A DNA stretch of 64,000 nucleotides from Ligustrum vulgare (Eukaryota > Streptophyta > Magnoliopsida > Lamiales > Oleaceae), in the NCBI GenBank assembly GCA_963555705.1, contig OY743172.1, forward strand, positions 17,111,446 to 17,175,445, read 5' to 3'. Below the pieces are notes generated by a model that made no database searches, had not been told where the DNA came from, and worked only from the letters and a program-made list of their open reading frames with translations. Positions 3 through 8,679 of the stretch are shown in pieces; the first letter of the stretch is position 1, and every line of letters begins with the position of its first letter. A program made the translations under genes and the position numbers.

Positions 3-752
3 TGGAAGGGCAAGGGTAGTGGTAGAGATGGAGATAAGTGCTTTCATTGTGGTAAAACGGGACACTTTAAGAAAGATTGCTACGAGTGGCTAAAGAAGAA
101 AGAGAGGCTGTGGGATGTAGCTCAAAGTAATACTGCTTTTGGGGCTTTTGGGAATGATGATGATCAATTGAGAGTGTTAAATGTGATGTTAGGTGAGCAG
201 AATCAAGAGTGGATACTTGACTCAGGGTGTTCCTATCATATGACCTCCCATAAAGCTTGGTTTAAGACCTATAGAGAGATAGATGGGGAGAATGTGTATT
301 TAGGGAATGGCGAGTCTTGTACTGTGATGGGAATAGGTGAAGTTGTGGTCAAGATGTATAATGGGATGGTTAGAGTTCTAACTGGGGTGAGGCATATACC
401 TGCTTTATCCAAAAATCTTATTTCTTTGAGCACATTGCATATGTCTGGTTTTCATCATGAAACAAAGAATGATAATATGTTAGTATGTAAAGGCAATGAC
501 ATTGTGATTAAAGGAATATTGAGAAATAGACTTTATTATATGCTTGGCACAACGGTAATTCAAGAACATTCATGCTCACACATAATTCAAAAGGATGACA
601 CTCAATTGAGGGACAAAATGATAGCCCATGAAGGAAATAAATTTCCTTGTATTTTTGTTACTGCTAACAATGTTGCAGGTTTAACTTCAAATTCACTTGA
701 AAGTGAGTTTTTGGAGGGTAAGGAGTTTGGAATAAACTCAAGTGACCAATGA
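3..752 (+). pseudogene. Ty1/copia gag-pol remnant (CCHC knuckle plus protease)
   Basis: An open frame enters from the left edge and runs to a TGA at 750-752. It encodes a retroviral-type zinc knuckle, C-x2-C-x4-H-x4-C (Cys codons at 39 and 48, His at 60, Cys at 78), at the end of gag. An aspartic protease start follows: WILDSGCSYHMTSHK, with the catalytic Asp codon at about 219. The next part resembles the region before integrase (IPALSKNLISLSTLHMSGF). The H-H-C-C zinc motif and integrase core expected next are missing, so this is an internally deleted, non-functional copy. The family call rests on the order knuckle, protease, pre-integrase, which is standard for plant copia. There is no ATG; the true gag start lies outside the window. 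Confidence 0.85.
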
Positions 753-1161
753 ACAAGTGGTCAAAGGTGTGGAGTTCAAAATCAGCTACAAAATAACGAT
801 TTTGATTCAGTTGTTGAGGAAGTTCAACAAGAAAATGATGAAGTTGTTGAAAATGATGGAGTTCAACAAGAAGCTACTCAAGAAAGCTTGTATGACTATC
901 TATTAGTCATGGATGGTGAAAGGAGGCAGGTAAACCCTAATCCTAGTTTTTATTCCATTAGTCTAAAAGAGTGTTCTCTTTTGACAGGTATTAAGGAATC
1001 TACAAGTTGTGGAGAAGCTAGGATGATTCAAAGTGTAATGCAAGTGAAGATGTTTTCTCCTGAACCATCAAGTCAAAAGGCTTGGAAGGATGAAAGCTTC
1101 CAAGAGGACTTTCAGAATAGGTGAAGGTAAATTTAGATTAGGTGGAGGTTTGGTTTAAGCC
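753..1161 (+). pseudogene. Copia pol hinge remnant after large internal deletion
   Basis: The same frame continues past the 750 TGA to a stop after codon 1124. It encodes an acidic Gln/Glu-rich stretch (VVEEVQQENDEVVENDG) and then YDYLLVMDGERRQVNPNPSFY. That second part resembles the acidic linker and R/K-P patch between integrase and reverse transcriptase of plant copia elements. The catalytic integrase and the whole RT/RNase H are absent, so about 3 kb of a normal element has been lost. No function is expected. Confidence 0.55.
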
Positions 1162-1173
1162 AAGGTGAAGGAA

Positions 1174-1655
1174 TGTGGGATTATTGGCTTAGAACCAAAC
1201 AAACAAGCCCTTAGAAATGCTATCTTGTTTAACATAAATTTGTGTGGCATTTCGAGGATTACTTAAAGTAATCGGGGGCAAAAATAAAAAAAGGGCTTAC
1301 GACCGTTAAAACCAATTGGGAAATAATTTTTAGTAATTGCATAAATTTGTTAAATTTTTTTACAAGTGAATTTTGGACTTGGGTATTTTTTATAAAATGT
1401 GCAACAAGTTTTTAAAGAGGTGGTGCATATTTCTCTAGAAAGTGGTTTTTCTAGTTTTCTCTCTACAAAAATATAACTTGTGATTTTTCTTCAAGAGAGT
1501 CAAGAAAAAGTTTATCTTCTTGATTGAATTGAGATTGCATGATTTTGATTTTCTCATTGGTATGGTCGTGAGCCTACATTTTCGGTCGGTATCGAATTCA
1601 TTATTTTGGCGTTCTTGGTATTCTTGATTTTGGAAATCAAGGTAAAGATCCTACA
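1174..1655 (+). repeat. Inferred 3' LTR of the decayed copia element
   Basis: A purine run AAGGTGAAGGAA (1162-1173), a plausible polypurine tract, sits directly before TGTGGGAT. The segment ends ATCCTACA at 1655, almost the inverse of its start, as expected for TG...CA LTR ends. The 5' LTR is outside the window, so the right boundary cannot be confirmed by comparison. If correct, the LTR is 482 bp. Confidence 0.45.
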
Positions 1656-2338
1656 AGTATGTATTAATACCTAAACTTGTAATAACAATACTTGCATAAA
1701 ACGGACCCTGGCCCCTTTCATAAATTAAATATCAAAATTGTACTGTTATATCGATACTTGCAGTAAAGAATTTGTATAAGATATTTTAGTGCAGGTTTAA
1801 CCTTCTTCTCTGAATCTTAAGTTCAATGCATCTCTCTTTGAAACAAATTGTACATATGGAACCCTTAATGTTTTTTTTTTAGTGTTTATCTCCATGTATC
1901 GATACATCTTTTTTACGATCATAACTTGCAAAATTCAAAATGTTGGATTGTCAAGGCATAACTGAATGTATCAAATATATACTAGATATCGATACATGCA
2001 ATGATATTATAGTATAACAATTTTGGAAAACTTTGAAATCAAATGTCGTAATGGTATCACCTCTTATACAATGACTTCATAATTATCTAAATTACTTAAT
2101 GATTTTATTTTCCTTCTGTTGTACTCTCTTTGTATTATAAAAATGAAAAAATTTATATGAAAAATTGTGTGCCACAAATTGTAAGATTGTTAAGCTAAGA
2201 AAAAAGAAAATACTAGGTATACACACTCACTTAAACACAAGACGTGTAAATACGTGCAATGACTATTTTGTCCTCATCTTATACATCTTGTGAGTAAGTC
2301 AATATTCACACCTAACAAAGTCCAAGAAAAAAACCTTT
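1656..2338. other. Intergenic, no gene seen
   Basis: AT-rich sequence with no supported ORF, terminal repeats or RNA gene. Confidence 0.6.
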
Positions 2339-2343
2339 GTCTG

Positions 2344-2551
2344 TGTTATAAATAATGTATATATGTGAATGACATAACCATTATATCCCTGTAAACTTTA
2401 CAATATTACGATTGTGCCATTGTCCACTCCTATAAATAGGAGCCTATACTTACCAATTTATTACACCAATTCTTGAAGAGAAATTCTCTCCTCTAAACTC
2501 TCTCCATTTCTCTCTCTATGTTGTTCTTATGATTTCGATGATTTTATAACA
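2344..2551 (+). repeat. 5' LTR with TATA-like promoter
   Basis: This 208-bp LTR matches 8467-8674 base for base by eye. It contains CTCCTATAAATAGGAG (TATAAATA at 2431-2438), a likely Pol II core promoter, followed by a CT-rich leader (TTCTCTCC..., 2480-2518). The same core is conserved in the related solo LTR at 60111-60294. Confidence 0.93.
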
Positions 2552-2573
2552 CGTTATCAGCACGAGTCTCTAA
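2552..2573 (+). other. Probable primer binding site region
   Basis: CGTTATCAGCACGAG immediately follows the 5' LTR, where a tRNA-derived primer pairs. It contains the TATCAG core seen next to many plant LTRs. I did not verify the complementary tRNA, so the exact primer is unassigned. Confidence 0.5.
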
Positions 2574-2702
2574 CCAATTGAGTAATAACGGGAGTATGCT
2601 CTACAGTTGCATCTAAATGATGAGCCTCTGTATCAGAAACCTGATTATTACTAACCAATGTTTCCTTTTCTCTCAAACTGAAAAAGAATGATTCTGTCCG
2701 AT

Positions 2703-2976
2703 CCAGATATCCGATCGACGATCGGCCACCGCCATCAGAACGGGCTTGTCAAGGAGAAGACTCGCCTAAAATTTGGCGCAGAACCAACGGCTGAAACAAA
2801 AGATATCGACCGAAGAAGAAAATCTGAAAAACTGTGCAAAAACAGATATCTGACCGAAAATTGAAATGCTTATTCCGGACGATTCTGAACTCCGATCGAC
2901 GATCGGCCAGCGGCATATCAACGGGTTTTTCTAGGAGAAGACTCGACTGAAATTTGGCGCAAATCCAACGGTTAAA
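2703..2976 (+). repeat. Tandem duplication in GC-rich leader of the retrotransposon
   Basis: The roughly 86-bp block starting TCCGATCGACGATCGGCCA at 2708 recurs at 2891 with a period of about 183 bp. Both copies run through GAGAAGACTCG and AAATTTGGCGCA to CCAACGG. CCGATCGACGATCGG is itself palindromic. The following 3000-3200 segment is GC-rich (3130-3175). Short ORFs here exist on both strands without recognisable domains, so I treat it as untranslated leader. Confidence 0.75.
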
Positions 2977-3489
2977 ACGGAAGTTATTGTCCGGAGAAGA
3001 AGATGCTGGCGGACTGAAAAATGATGATTCCGGCCAAACGGTTGATCTTTTGGAAAATCGGAGACCACCGGCATGTTCAGGACGCCGAGGCACATATTAT
3101 GGTGATGGGTCAATTTTTCCGATCACCGGCGCGTGGCGGCCGGCGGCGGCGGCGCGTGGCGGATCCGGCGATGACGAAAGGCAGTTTGTCCGTTTTGATG
3201 AATTGGATTTTTCTATGATCTTATTTTTCTGTTTTGTGCAGTTTTTAAAATATTCCGGCGGTCGAACATGGCGGTTTTCTTAAAAACTGTTTTTGGAGCA
3301 ATCCTGACGAGATTTTGAACTTCGGACCAAAAGTAAGTTTGTTCTAAATTAAATTTTAAACCTATTGACGGTTTCAATTTATTCATATGAGCAATATATT
3401 AAAATATGGACGATTTTGCCCTTAATAATACATACAAGTATAATAATCGTAAATTAACGATTAATATGTGATCAATTGAATTATATTAT

Positions 3490-3665
3490 GCTGCCACCTA
3501 CATGGTTGGTTTTACCACCTACATGGTTGGCTTTACCCGGTTTAATTATTTCATTATGTCGATTCTGCCTATATGGCCGGTTTAATTGTTTCATCTCGTT
3601 GATACCGTCTATATGGCTGGTTTAATTATTTCATCACGTTGACACCGCCTATATGATCGGTATAT
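3490..3665 (+). repeat. Iterated hairpins with TACAT/TATAT loops
   Basis: Five short units have the form ACC(N)3-TATAT/TACAT-(N)3GGT, for example CCACCTACATGGTTGG (twice) and ACCGTCTATATGGCTGGT. They are separated by a repeated TTTAATTATTTCAT spacer. The arms are near-complementary around a five-base loop, the same architecture as the CAGAA-loop hairpins downstream but with another loop sequence. Confidence 0.6.
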
Positions 3666-3814
3666 CAATTGAATACATATAAACACCTCAGTTGTTGGTT
3701 AATTCTAACATATTAGAGGGTTGTTGTCAACATATATACTTGGTGGTATAACCCCAGTATCGTTATTGTTAATATATATATACAATATTATTGTTATTTG
3801 ATACTTCATTAAAT

Positions 3815-4204
3815 GATACCAGAAGTTATCAATACTAAAGTTAGAAAATATTTTATCAAATGATACCAGAAGTTATCATTACCAAAAGGTTGATAAATAT
3901 TAATAAAATGTTTTATCCAATGGTACCAGAAGTTACCAATATCTGAATTTGAATGGGTGGATGAAAATTATTCAACAAGAGAATGTTGATGTATGATAAG
4001 ATAATATCACATGATAGCACGGATATAGCTAATGTGAAAATAATCTCATCAGTATTATGAGATGAATGTTAGATGATAAGTGCCTGGAAAAGTTCTTGCA
4101 CGAGCACTTATATATTCCAGAAGAAGTACATATTTACTCCAGAAGAAGTAAAAATTATCATCTAAACATACTGAAATGATATTATTATTGCTCCTGAAGA
4201 AGCA
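3815..4204 (+). repeat. CAGAA-loop hairpin array A
   Basis: Short palindromes with a shared loop: 3861-3878 (TGATA...TATCA), 3921-3938 (TGGTA...TACCA), 4133-4152 (TTTACT...AGTAAA), 4189-4204 (TGCT...AGCA, loop CCTGAAGA), and a near-perfect one at 3815-3830. A further 7-bp stem is ATCTCAT/ATGAGAT at 4043-4063 with loop CAGTATT. The first two stems differ by paired changes (A to G with T to C), so pairing is kept while sequence changes. Confidence 0.8.
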
Positions 4205-4474
4205 TAAACGAGACATACATGCAAAATGCAAAAGGGGAAAACATTTATGATCCTCAAAATTAGAGATGTGTTTCGGGAGTAGCCGTATCCTACCACCTCT
4301 GACCTTTTGAGGAAATAAAGAAAAAAGTGTGTTTCAAGAGTAAGAAATACTCCATACTCTACCACTTTAAATCTTTGAGGTACACAAGATTAATACATTG
4401 ATAAAATCCTAGAAATTTATGGTGTGTCTCAAGAGTGAGAATACTCCGTACTCTACCACCACCTATTCTAGAGT

Positions 4475-5128
4475 TCACAAAGATAAATTTACATTAACCG
4501 GACTCCATTTTCGCTTGATTCCCCTTCCTTGCGACCAATCTATCTTTACTCCTGCTGGATCTTGTATTGGAATATATGATTGCAACTTATCCAGCAGTTC
4601 CTCGATAGTAGGAGCAGAAATAAGGATTCTCCTAGAAAATGGAGATATGAATCCCTGTTCCACAGCATAATCAAGAAATGTTAGCAAACCATCAAAGAAA
4701 TTGTTTACATTTAAAAGCCCTATAGGCTTAGTATGGAGATCTAGTTGAGCCCATGAAGTAATATTAAAGATTTCTTCTAAAGTACCAAAACCTCCAGGCA
4801 GGGCTATGAAGGCATCAGAACCATATAACATGCAAGTTATGCGTTCATGGATAGATAAGGTTTGTACTTCATGCCCTCGTGTTTTGCCTGCAATATCAGC
4901 TAAAGGAGTAGGTATAACACCTATCACTCTTGCTTTCTCTACTAGAGCGGATTGTGAAACACAACCCATCAATCCACTGCTACCTCCTCCATACACGAGA
5001 GTGATACCTTTCTCTCCCAATTTCTTTCCTAAATCCACGGCTGCTTCTAGATACCCAAAACCTTTTCCCACTTTTGATCCACAAAATACACAGATAGTTT
5101 TGATCTGTCGAAATTTTGGTCCTTCCAT
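4475..5128 (-). CDS. LOG-like: LONELY GUY-like cytokinin riboside 5'-monophosphate phosphoribohydrolase
   Basis: Intact 217-residue ORF with its own ATG (rc of 5126-5128). LOG enzymes release active cytokinin bases from nucleotide precursors in one cytosolic step. Seen here: the Rossmann-like start ICVFCGS (12-18), VYGGGSSGLMG (45-55), catalytic Arg96 in IHER, and the LOG signature PGGFGTLEE (111-119), followed by SWAQLDLHTKPIGLLNV and a C-terminal ISAPTIEELL helix. Length is normal for the family. Oddities: plant LOG genes have several introns but this copy has none, suggesting capture through RNA. It lies antisense inside the LTR retrotransposon. The Lys that usually follows the catalytic Arg is Ile97, and the last 15 residues are unusually basic. 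Family membership is secure; activity and exact subclade are not. Confidence 0.9.
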   Translation of the reverse strand: MEGPKFRQIKTICVFCGSKVGKGFGYLEAAVDLGKKLGEKGITLVYGGGSSGLMGCVSQSALVEKARVIGVIPTPLADIAGKTRGHEVQTLSIHERITCMLYGSDAFIALPGGFGTLEEIFNITSWAQLDLHTKPIGLLNVNNFFDGLLTFLDYAVEQGFISPFSRRILISAPTIEELLDKLQSYIPIQDPAGVKIDWSQGRGIKRKWSPVNVNLSL

Positions 5129-5188
5129 TTTTGAAAGTAAAGAAGGAAAATGTTATTTTGGGATGCATGAACTATGAAAAATGTTTGG

Positions 5189-5198
5189 CTATTTAAAA
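5189..5198 (-). promoter_or_regulatory. Possible TATA element upstream of antisense LOG
   Basis: On the minus strand TTTTAAATAG lies about 61 nt before the LOG ATG. The matching ATTTAAATAG lies about 34 nt before the second antisense ORF (5957-5966). The shared 9-mer TTTAAATAG suggests each antisense gene has its own core promoter; position and sequence are the only evidence. Confidence 0.3.
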
Positions 5199-5377
5199 CC
5201 GAAAAACTTCACTATTTACTGGTCGTTTTTCGAAAAAGTGAAGATTTACTTTTGACAAAATCATCCTACTCACCTTTCGGCGATTTAATATTTTTAACCA
5301 GCCTTTATCAAAACTCGTGAAAGGAAACAGAAAAAAATATTTTATATGTGCATATATATCAAATGATTTACCTTGTA

Positions 5378-5923
5378 TTAATGCTGCATAGCCAAAGCAT
5401 CATTGTTTATAACAGCATGGCAAACAGGATCTTTTGCTATTATATTTTTGAGACTATATCTCTCTTTATCGCTGATGAATTTAGCCCATAAAGATAGTAG
5501 CTCACGCTGCACATATCCACTAGGGTGCGTCTCAAGAGTCAATCGGATATCATCCAATGACTCCTTACTCAGTCCACCCTTAATGAAGTCTATCTTATCA
5601 TCTCGATTTATGGATGAATATCCTATTGATTTACAACGGGTATCACATGTCCATCGAGCACATTTGTAGCAACTATTTAATCTTTTTGCTCTTCGCTTCT
5701 TTGCAAAAGTACTCTTACCTAAGCCAGGCTTGTGCTTAGAAAATGAATCTGGTAATTCACCAGCTAATCGAACTTTTGCTTCGATCAACCAGCGAACATC
5801 TTCTGGCATGCCATGATCCATCAGCAACCTCAATCTTTCGAGCCTAATTCGATAATTTTTTCTCAAATCATTTACTGGAAGATTGGAATAATATTTGCGA
5901 ATATTTGAAAGTATGATATCCAT
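5378..5923 (-). CDS. Unassigned basic Cys-rich protein, possibly nucleic-acid binding
   Basis: Intact 181-residue ORF starting at a real ATG, 249 bp upstream of and in the same direction as the LOG ORF, so the two form an antisense pair inside the retrotransposon. Residues 1-60 look helical and charged. KKRRAKR (75-81) is a strong nuclear-localisation or RNA-binding patch. It is followed at once by C85-x2-C88-x4-C93-x3-C97, a possible zinc ligand set, and then an IDFIKGG segment. The combination of a G-K-S-T start, Arg/Lys run, closely spaced Cys and later FI-x2-G recalls the small Cys-rich nucleic-acid-binding proteins of carla-type plant RNA viruses. That is only a pattern resemblance and could be chance. 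It is not a retroviral CCHC knuckle. I do not recognise a host family. Confidence 0.6.
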   Translation of the reverse strand: MDIILSNIRKYYSNLPVNDLRKNYRIRLERLRLLMDHGMPEDVRWLIEAKVRLAGELPDSFSKHKPGLGKSTFAKKRRAKRLNSCYKCARWTCDTRCKSIGYSSINRDDKIDFIKGGLSKESLDDIRLTLETHPSGYVQRELLSLWAKFISDKERYSLKNIIAKDPVCHAVINNDALAMQH

Positions 5924-5956
5924 TTTTTGATGGATCTAGCCTTCTTCCCAAATCAT

Positions 5957-5966
5957 CTATTTAAAT
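5957..5966 (-). promoter_or_regulatory. Possible TATA element upstream of the Cys-rich ORF
   Basis: ATTTAAATAG on the minus strand, about 34 nt before the ATG at 5923. It shares TTTAAATAG with the site upstream of LOG at 5189-5198. Confidence 0.3.
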
Positions 5967-6216
5967 GCATTATTCAACGCGTAAAAGAGCGACGGCTCCG
6001 CGTGTCAGTGATATGGATTCCATCAAGAAATAATGGAATAAATTATTGAAAAGGTGAGATAATATGCCATTACCTTTTTCGATATAAGGGAAGATTTTGC
6101 GACAAGATTGAGATTATGAGATATTTCCTTGGATATTGTACCTGATTTTTCGGTATACTAAAAGTAATAAAGGTATACTGATTTGAACTATATAGAATAC
6201 TGATGAAATAAATGTT

Positions 6217-7730
6217 GTATTGAACCAGAAGTTCATACATATGTACAAGTGAAATATCTTATTGAACCAGAAGTTCATACGTACAAGTGAAATATGTATA
6301 TAGTATGAACCAGAAGCTCATAAATGAAATATACATTGTATTGAACCAGAAGTTTAGCGATATTGTATTGAATCAAATATTCATACATAGAAATGAAATA
6401 AAACCGTATAGAACCAGAAGTTCTATAATAAACGGTTAGATTATCAAAAGTTCCAAATTATTTTCTATGAGAATAACTTATTCAGAAATTGTTTATCATA
6501 CAACAATATTCTATGTCAAACAGGGAATAGCTCAAGAAGCTTTATTATTTGTAAAAGTGCGATATGCATACACTCCACCAAAGCGCACTGAGATATATGA
6601 TTGAAATTACATCCCTAAAAGAATGACATGTGTTATGGCATTTTAGCCGATTGATAATATTTGAGAACATTATGGTGAAAACACGCCTGAAGCGTAATTA
6701 TGCCTGAAGCATAATGACTATCGATTCCAAAAATAAATATCTCTTGAATGATTGAAATGATTCCTTTGAGGCTAAATACTCAAAGTAAGTAAAAGGGACA
6801 TAGTCAAATGATGAGATATTCAGGTACCTGATGATAGAACATATAAAGAGATCTCTCCACGTTATATTGAGATGGAATCGATAAATAAGTCGACTGCATA
6901 CCCTCTTATGAAATAAGATTGATGAAATCATAATTCTTTGGCCAAGTATGAAACCCTAATGTAGGGATTATTGTTCAAGGACCTGAAGTCCAAATGCTTA
7001 AATGTGTAAAGCCAGTAATTATATGTACAAATGAAAAATATTTCACAGTCGTAAAAGACGACTAGTTGCGCGCGAAATTTTTCATAGAACTGGCATGACA
7101 TATGGTGGATAGACTATAGTCTAAATCACTAGCTTGAGCTCCTTGATATACCAATGAGTGAGATCAAAATGTATGATTCTCATCTCGGTACTTTGGGAGT
7201 ATTCTTTGATGTACCAGTTGATCGCGGTACGTTGGGATTTCAAGTAAAATGATTGTAGATTATATGTCGAAATTGATATCTATTTCAATGATTGATTATG
7301 CTCCTGCAAAATTAGAAATTGCAGTTTATAAAGTGTAAGAACATACATGTATAAATCATTGAAAGATTCAATATGCCCAGATTAGTATCACTATAGAATG
7401 ATACAAATGACTCCATGATATAATATGTTGAAAGTGAAATTGGAGTGTACTATTTATGACATCTGGGAAATTGATTATTCACTAGAAGTGAATACGAAAA
7501 TGAATATTCACCAGAAGTGAATTTGAAATTGATTATTCACTAGAAGTGAATTTGAAAATGAATATTTAATTATTCACTAGAAGTGAAAGATGCAATCTAT
7601 GAAAGTGAATTATAGATTTGATTATTCACCAGAAGTGAATTCTAAATTTGATTATTCACCAGAAGTGAAAAATACAATGAAAAGATTCGTGATTGCACCA
7701 ATATACATGTAATATTCCATGAAAGGAATA
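6217..7730 (+). repeat. CAGAA/CTGAA/TAGAA-loop hairpin array B
   Basis: More than a dozen hairpins with 4-8 bp stems and mostly five-base loops. CAGAA loops: 6217-6238, 6263-6277, 6304-6322, 6407-6427 (8-bp TATAGAAC/GTTCTATA), 7506-7522, 7624-7640, 7654-7669. CTGAA loops: 6683-6695 (ACGC/GCGT), 6697-6715 (ATTATGC/GCATAAT), 6979-6991 (GGAC/GTCC). TAGAA loops: 7477-7493, 7535-7551, 7572-7587. Other loops: CAAAT at 6365-6386, AAAAG at 7048-7062, ATGAAA at 7713-7730. Stems differ completely between loci yet stay complementary, and loops hold the form C/T-A/T-GAA. No protein is encoded here. Confidence 0.85.
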
Positions 7731-7740
7731 AATACGCGTT

Positions 7741-8434
7741 GCACTCTTTTTCCCTTAGCTGAGGTTTTGTCCCACAGGGTTTTCATAGCAAGTTTTTTTA
7801 ATGAGGCAACAGTTGAGGCGTATTGATGAAAATTAATGAGAATAATGCACTCTTTTTCCCTTCGCTGAGGTTTTGTCCCACAGGGTTTTCCTAGCAAGGT
7901 TTTTGAGGCATCATCATAGCTATCAACAAGCTATAATTCAGCAACACATTGGTATACTGGAATGATATCAACAAATGAAGAAAATCATACACATCTTATG
8001 AAGAATGTTATGATATCGACTACACACAAGAAGATTTTCATATATATTCCAGAAGAAAGATGATATCATTATTCAAAAGGTTCATGAATACTTGATTGCA
8101 CACTTCAGGGGGAGAATCATGCTGTCATGCTGTACTCTTTTTCCTTCGTCCAGGTTTTGTCCCACAGGGTTTTCCTGACAAGGTTTTAACGAGGCAGCGG
8201 CTTTACTCTTTTTCCTTCGTTCAGATTTTGTCCCATTGGGTTTTACTGACAAGGTTTTAACGAGGCAGCACTGAAGCACTGAAGAACTTCAAAGATTCAA
8301 TACATGATTTGTTCTACTTGAACATTAAGACTCAACGATTGACGATGGCCAATATCAGGGGGAGCAACTGTACTCTTTTTCCTTCGCTCAAGTTTTATCC
8401 CATTGGGTTTTCTTAGCAAGGTTTTAACGAGGCA
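7741..8434 (+). repeat. Five copies of a TTTTGTCCCA-containing repeat near the 3' LTR
   Basis: Copies at about 7741-7806, 7848-7910, 8132-8200, 8202-8270 and 8371-8434 share CTCTTTTTCCTTCG, then TTTTGTCCCACAGGGTTTTC, AGCAAGGTTTT and AACGAGGCA. A very similar block is common downstream of RNase H in plant copia elements (from memory), which supports copia ancestry for this pol-less element. The copies differ from each other by several bases, so the amplification predates the latest insertion. Confidence 0.75.
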
Positions 8435-8457
8435 GACAATTGCGTAATATGTCATTC

Positions 8458-8466
8458 AAGGGGGAG
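8458..8466 (+). other. Polypurine tract (plus-strand primer site)
   Basis: AAGGGGGAG abuts the 3' LTR, the position required for plus-strand priming. AGGGGGAG also occurs at 8107-8114 and 8357-8364, each just upstream of a TTTTGTCCCA repeat, so the tract appears to have been amplified with those repeats. Confidence 0.8.
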
Positions 8467-8674
8467 TGTTATAAATAATGTATATATGTGAATGACATAA
8501 CCATTATATCCCTGTAAACTTTACAATATTACGATTGTGCCATTGTCCACTCCTATAAATAGGAGCCTATACTTACCAATTTATTACACCAATTCTTGAA
8601 GAGAAATTCTCTCCTCTAAACTCTCTCCATTTCTCTCTCTATGTTGTTCTTATGATTTCGATGATTTTATAACA
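8467..8674 (+). repeat. 3' LTR
   Basis: Same 208 bp as 2344-2551 with no difference seen. Followed by the GTCTG target duplication at 8675-8679. Confidence 0.93.
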
Positions 8675-8679
8675 GTCTG

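Follow-up and report, generated by a model that had tools for sequence, protein, structure and literature searches.

The window analysed here, a 64,000-nucleotide stretch of Ligustrum vulgare DNA, contains a complete LTR retrotransposon of 6,331 bp (positions 2344-8674) with two genes in tandem on its minus strand: a relative of the carlavirus nucleic-acid-binding proteins (NABP, 5923 to 5378) followed, after a gap of 249 bp, by a LOG homologue (5128 to 4475). The original prediction had LOG alone; NABP was absent from it. The element has a high recent copy number, the two genes lie side by side, NABP first, in the loci read, both carry the mark of purifying selection, and the clade to which this LOG belongs is associated with a distinctive C-terminal tail. 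The reading that we prefer, and to which we give slightly better than even chances, is that the pair forms a selected antisense accessory module that manipulates the host, carried on a non-autonomous LTR retrotransposon.

The element is bounded by a 5-bp target-site duplication, GTCTG, intact at both ends (2339-2343 and 8675-8679). Its LTRs, each of 208 bp and on the plus strand (5' LTR 2344-2551, 3' LTR 8467-8674), end in TG...CA and show 0 differences over their whole length, which bears out the original prediction that the element moved recently. A PBS-like sequence, CGTTATCAGCACGAG, lies immediately 3' of the 5' LTR (2552-2566, plus strand), and a polypurine tract, AAGGGGGAG, lies just before the 3' LTR (8458-8466, plus strand). 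These positions place the genomic RNA on the plus strand, and the LOG reading frame on the minus strand is therefore antisense to it. An ORF survey of 2344-8674 found no plus-strand frame of gag-pol size; with its LTRs, duplication, PBS-like site and polypurine tract, the element is a non-autonomous LTR retrotransposon. An Rfam search of the element gave no match. At window positions 168-752, near the element, a retrotransposon polyprotein is represented by a Pol_BBD fragment (E=1e-30), which we take to be of Copia type.

The element family is a recent burst. A DNA search with LOG (40 scored of 1687 candidates) returned at least 40 other copies, all identical over 654 bp, and a protein search (best 150 of 9449) returned at least 150 copies including that of the window, all 217/217 identical and free of stops; both searches favour the best matches. 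Two outcomes that would have counted against the original prediction, LOG in one copy only, and stops in most copies or a dN/dS near 1, were not observed: the listed 150 are stop-free and the ratio between lineages is ~0.2. The 150 protein-identical LOGs sit on C1 to C5:23.45 Mb, a stretch of about 345 Mb in a genome of 1385 Mb if the length of C4 is taken as ~69 Mb; this is roughly a quarter of the genome and so, with an even spread, would imply some 600 genome-wide. The region common to both lists holds 70 protein-identical and 40 DNA-identical LOGs, and the 30 outside the DNA list presumably differ only silently. Twenty copies with DNA-identical LOG were fetched. Exact 5-bp duplications flank 18 of them (the exceptions are L013 and L027), LTRs are identical in 13 and differ by one or two bases in four, the LTR pairs of L013, L024 and L028 not being simply comparable, and NABP is open in all 20. 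The interiors of L013, L020, L021 and L028 are near-identical to that of the window, with LTRs only 81-89% like those of the window, and the two LTRs of L028 are of different type; this divergence suggests LTR exchange or different mobilising partners.

Two samples were drawn blind to LOG. The first comprised 40 places identical over 1000 non-coding bases, of which 23 on C1-C5 were checked; a protein-identical LOG stands at the expected place in 21 of these, window included, or in 21 of the 22 that fall within the LOG-scanned range. The exceptions are L037, beyond the scanned range and with an identical LOG, and L044, with a nonsense codon in LOG. In nine copies of this first sample, on C5-C12, LOG is open in eight (L033 is frameshifted) and NABP in all nine. 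The second sample was taken from 40 places that match the 3' end of the element exactly, the 18 on C1-C5 being checked: 12 carry a protein-identical LOG, window included, one lies beyond the scanned range, and the remaining five are two with one amino-acid change, one with a duplication, one with a deletion and one without the element. L043 holds no part of the element. LOG is broken or missing in the young copies L033, L040, L042 and L044, as expected of dead insertions. An older neighbouring copy, L038, has deletions in both genes and is read as decayed.

The LOG reading frame (4475-5128, minus strand) encodes 217 residues that are predicted to adopt the LOG phosphoribohydrolase fold. It matches the Pfam family Lysine_decarbox (PF03641, E=7.4e-34), At2g37210 (2a33, E=1.6e-59) is the closest relative with a solved structure, and a structure search with its AF2 model (pLDDT 85.6) gave 2a33 (2a33_B) as top match (E 1.7e-24, rmsd 0.9). 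The frame is intact and retains HER and PGGFGTLEE, in agreement with the original claim of an antisense LOG with catalytic motifs. In an alignment of 27 members, P111-G113 and T116-E119 are invariant and R96 and G115 are found in at least 90%, the Arg and PGGxGTLEE being retained in nearly all.

The proposal that LOG was recently captured as cDNA is not supported, given its separate clade, its relatives in several eudicot orders and its virus-like NABP partner, constant in the loci read. A tree of 58 hand-chosen rows (36 of the relatives listed and 20 of the canonical LOGs listed, from 120 of each, together with the window and the 1ydh stretch) splits 37 window-type LOGs from 21 canonical ones at a 100/100 branch with a stem of 0.97. 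Among the matches listed (120 of 7301), the named relatives come from Xanthoceras, Diospyros, Reevesia, Diplodiscus, Populus, Parasponia and Primulina, and the clade spans several eudicot orders. This LOG is therefore no recent cDNA of a host gene, and fresh capture was rejected on the tree and the family spread; either its acquisition is old or the lineage may have spread between species. When the genome was searched with a canonical LOG, the 150 matches scored, of 8923 candidates, were all single-frame and six had a stop; none exceeded 52% identity to the Arabidopsis protein, to which the 120 listed canonical LOGs are 74-98% identical. Canonical host LOGs are thus not seen as single full-length frames among the matches scored, which supports, indirectly, the statement that they have introns.

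At its C-terminus the window LOG reads VNVNLSL (4478-4498, minus strand), a V-for-L variant of an LxLxL (EAR-like) tail, preceded by a KRK basic patch (4508-4516, minus strand) that may resemble a nuclear localisation signal. The EAR motif, which binds TOPLESS-type co-repressors, has LxLxL as its core. With V in place of the first L, the window LOG falls outside the strict LxLxL definition of an EAR-motif repressor. Its clade conforms more closely: LxLxL at most two residues from the C-terminus occurs in 95 of the 120 listed window-LOG relatives against none of the 120 listed canonical LOGs, many of the other 25 being shortened or ending before the tail site. A relaxed pattern raises the count to 102, again against 0 of 120 canonical, and a basic patch within the last 35 residues is present in 105 of 120 against 1 of 120. 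Residues 201-213 and 215-217 of the AF2 model have pLDDT <50, fitting an exposed tail.

The upstream gene (5378-5923, minus strand) encodes an NABP/CRP-like protein of 181 residues. It matches PF05515 (Viral_NABP) with E=5.4e-9 and 36.8 bits (cut-off 23) and PF01623 (Carla_C4) with E=2.4e-5 and 24.6 bits (cut-off 20.9); each family matches 26 of the 29 members of the NABP alignment. The protein has a cysteine cluster, C-x2-C-x4-C-x3-C (5633-5671, minus strand), and a basic motif, KKRRAKR (5681-5701, minus strand), which is followed by CYKCARWTCDTRC. A similar short-spaced cluster is present in 108 of 120 listed NABP relatives. The named relatives, among the matches listed (120 of 334), are plants: Orobanche, Populus, Acer and Xanthoceras. 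A scan of viral contigs with a single NABP query, which reaches close relatives only, confirmed no relative, and the AF2 model of NABP (pLDDT 50.7) was discarded. An Orobanche gracilis gene model, P0141, fuses NABP with part of LOG, and LOG and NABP hits fall on contigs of matching size (P0025/P0142, 8723; P0075/P0137, 4511). The matching pairs together with P0141 are a hint of LOG-NABP linkage in other plants, where copy number and linkage suggest that the hits lie in retrotransposons.

The 12 best of the 150 canonical-LOG matches (L045-L056) represent diverse lineages of the NABP-LOG module. NABP precedes LOG in 12/12, although two hold only the first part of NABP, and 11 of the 12 LOGs end in VNVNL[ST]L, L046 terminating before the tail. 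Mean dN/dS for LOG is 0.216 over 13 sequences including the window (78 non-independent pairs, the stop-carrying L046 and L047 retained), a value that may be lowered by the choice of these loci by LOG match. NABP, on which there was no such selection, gives a mean of 0.199 (10 of the 13 sequences, 45 pairs, leaving out L046, L050 and L051 with a broken or short NABP). Between the window and L052 there are 12 non-synonymous and 26 synonymous changes in LOG (p=1e-8) and 31 and 39 in NABP (p=2e-9). A second family in the same genome, represented by L057, has a cassette ~80% identical to that of the window, again with NABP before LOG; its LOG differs by 14 non-synonymous and 57 synonymous changes (dN/dS 0.06) and its NABP gives a dN/dS of 0.17 over 176 codons. 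The synonymous excess in both reading frames argues for selection on protein, and purifying selection on both genes is well supported by these comparisons. L048 differs from the window by eight silent changes in LOG and none in NABP, a sign of possible template switching between lineages.

A third, far lineage, L058, also encodes NABP and LOG in this order (1137-2627, minus strand), with amino-acid identities to the window of 63% (NABP) and 57% (LOG) over the aligned parts, so that three lineages of this genome have the two genes next to each other with NABP first. Their antisense placement relative to LTRs was read in the window and in L009-L028. The LOG homologue of L058 has a long basic C-terminal extension ending in LDLELRL and reads HES for HER, PGD for PGG and TLEQ for TLEE; without the usual active-site Arg and second Gly, catalysis is perhaps dispensable in some lineages. 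A search with a foreign NABP (150 scored of 8565 candidates, 64-69% identical, six with a stop) found 16 neighbour groups spaced by 5.3-7.0 kb on one strand, as in tandem arrays. The L057 family apparently forms such head-to-tail units of 5.3-7.0 kb, for example at C10:31673650/31680562/31687474.

Upstream of NABP lies a conserved block (5924-6280, minus strand) that is a candidate antisense promoter or 5' UTR. Identity to the window among lineages, per 40 bp, is 0.89-0.98 in 6280-5924, 0.62-0.77 in the seven 40-bp blocks of 6281-6560 and 0.85, with a third gaps, in 6561-6600. Mean lineage identity is 0.94 in NABP, 0.96 in LOG, ~0.93 in the 350 bp upstream of NABP and 0.89 in the non-coding spacer; since the spacer is nearly as conserved as the upstream block (0.89 against 0.93), the contrast is weaker than it appears, and rapid turnover of repeats, and not a promoter edge, may account for the drop past 6280. 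A TATA-like sequence, TTTAAATA (5958-5965, minus strand), stands 40-42 nt before the NABP start in 13/13 loci; in L057 the distance is 41 nt, and no such sequence occurs in the stretch read before NABP of L058. The antisense promoter put forward by the original prediction is thus consistent with the upstream conservation and the TATA-like site, which fit it without proving it, and is tempered by the conservation of the spacer. That spacer (5129-5377, minus strand) contains possible splice sites, found in most lineages and not all, and a second TATA-like site before LOG that is exact in only some. A scan of the cassette for bacterial-type promoters found 7 against 7.5 expected and is uninformative.

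The genomic-RNA strand has a further feature, an array of short hairpins between 3820 and 7670 in which the loop, C[AT]GAA, is fixed while the arms differ yet remain self-complementary. A first group with this loop lies at 3820-4204 and a second, with loop [CT][AT]GAA and arms covarying between units, at 6226-7670 (both plus strand). With a stem of at least 4 and one 3' bulge allowed, 14 C[AT]GAA hairpins were found on the plus strand and 0 on the minus strand, and other five-base loops gave at most three each in the same scan. Among the 14 units (11 distinct), which were partly picked for loop and stem, five of six pairs change on both sides, a count that 50 of 500 shuffles also reach; the covariation score of 0.679, against 0.198 for shuffled units, was reached by 0 of 500. 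L057 gave one weak case in a scan without bulges. The hairpins are perhaps a packaging or Gag-binding array.

Several explanations compete for the two genes. One is that a host LOG cDNA captured by chance is a mere passenger, multiplied only through the element. An intronless frame in a very young, high-copy element and the existence of broken copies are what it would lead one to expect, but it does not accommodate a dN/dS of about 0.2 and lower between lineages in both genes, a LOG clade apart from the canonical one, or a partner gene and order that are constant in the loci read; we regard it as largely refuted by these comparisons and barely credible. A second explanation, in which the antisense unit acts as RNA, pairing with the genomic RNA and setting copy number through small RNAs with coding secondary, draws on the antisense arrangement and on a like role discussed, in the part of the review concerned, for other antisense ORFs (PMC7264820). 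The synonymous excess in both frames points instead to selection on protein, and makes this explanation very improbable.

Both genes may alternatively have arrived as a block from an RNA virus that had captured LOG. This would explain a virus-like NABP, genes adjacent in the loci read and the long stem of the LOG clade; the viral-contig scan with NABP, which reaches close relatives only, on the other hand confirmed no virus with both genes, and all organism-named hits among the matches listed (120 of 7301 for LOG, 120 of 334 for NABP) are plants, which weighs little. We consider such an origin distinctly unlikely. Somewhat less unlikely is that the LOG homologue is mainly a nuclear TOPLESS-binding recruiter or decoy with incidental enzyme activity. 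The tail is confined to the window-LOG clade in the lists compared, and L058 retains its LDLELRL end despite HES and PGD, but the Arg and PGGxGTLEE are kept in nearly all 27 aligned members and the window lineage itself has the weaker VNVNLSL tail.

We prefer the host-manipulating module because relatives of both proteins control host division, transcription and silencing. NABP and LOG, which are unrelated proteins, are kept together in one order and are selected; as single copies decay after insertion, the pair must have served the element repeatedly. Transcription of the module would start at a promoter of its own within the conserved block 5924-6280. By analogy with published work on carlavirus CRPs, NABP would work in the nucleus, suppressing silencing, regulating transcription, or both. 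LOG would release free cytokinin, and its tail, where intact, would recruit TOPLESS-type co-repressors. The joint effect would be a host cell that goes on dividing and is weakly silenced, a state in which the element, which an autonomous partner would mobilise in trans, could be copied more often into cells that are inherited. The cytokinin effect suggested in the original prediction would be one part of this. A bolder form of this proposal is possible, though we rate it at somewhat under even chances: that a retrotransposon lineage across several eudicot orders keeps a host-reprogramming pair, a virus-derived zinc-finger protein and a LOG with a nuclear TOPLESS-recruiting tail, which favours inherited transposition. 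In meristem and germ-line cells the pair would, if this is true, raise free cytokinin and disarm silencing or repression, and a transposon would be wielding the tools of pathogen effectors. A selfish element would then be acting on hormone level and silencing in its host cell as viruses and other pathogens are known to do. Many intact, near-identical LOG genes would in addition be relevant to the hormone biology, gene annotation and breeding of such plants.

Compared with canonical plant LOG (At2g37210, 2a33), the window LOG has the fold and active-site motifs in common; it is 46-48% identical to six canonical LOGs in alignment A2, is a single-frame ORF, and differs in the basic patch and LxLxL-type tail, a trait of its clade. 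YgdH (LOG-family) domains are reported in Ty3/gypsy elements from Citrus and from Populus (PMC9289625), a finding said to go back to Steinbauerova et al. 2011; as here, a LOG-family domain sits inside a plant LTR retrotransposon, and Populus is also among the named LOG relatives. Those elements were identified through their reverse transcriptase, whereas the window element has no pol, and the passages of that source dealing with them mention no NABP partner, tail, antisense placement or selection test (PMC9289625).

Published accounts assign silencing suppression to the CRPs of carlaviruses; for chrysanthemum virus B they add that the CRP is a transcription factor and causes hyperplasia (PMC12172455, PMC8839810). 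As far as these sources describe them, the NABPs of carlaviruses, allexiviruses and mandariviruses resemble that of the window in their Viral_NABP and Carla_C4 matches and in a basic motif adjoining the cysteine cluster (PMC12172455, PMC8839810). They differ in that the window NABP is encoded in a plant genome, and its spacing, C-x2-C-x4-C-x3-C, departs from the C-x2-C-x12-C-x4-C given for a carlavirus (PMC8839810). The open-licence PMC literature, in the portions consulted, yielded no report of a retrotransposon with NABP and LOG or of a LOG with an LxLxL tail. LOG-type domains in gypsy elements and antisense extra ORFs are already in print; the virus-like partner and the tail were not found in the literature consulted.

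The closest parallels in arrangement are the antisense additional ORFs of other plant LTR retrotransposons, namely Grande gene23, RIRE2, Retand TRP28 and PvRetro13 (PMC7264820, PMC11963269). As described there, the antisense ORF is present in most copies with tandem repeats nearby, as in the window element, and an antisense promoter is reported for Grande. The sources call the role of these proteins unknown and present them as without clear relatives or as putatively DNA-binding (PMC7264820, PMC11963269), and a 2020 review likewise calls the benefit of antisense extra genes to plant retrotransposons unknown (PMC7264820). Unlike those ORFs, the window pair consists of one member of an enzyme family of known chemistry and one virus-like gene; because the relatives of both proteins have known biochemistry, the question of their role is directly testable.
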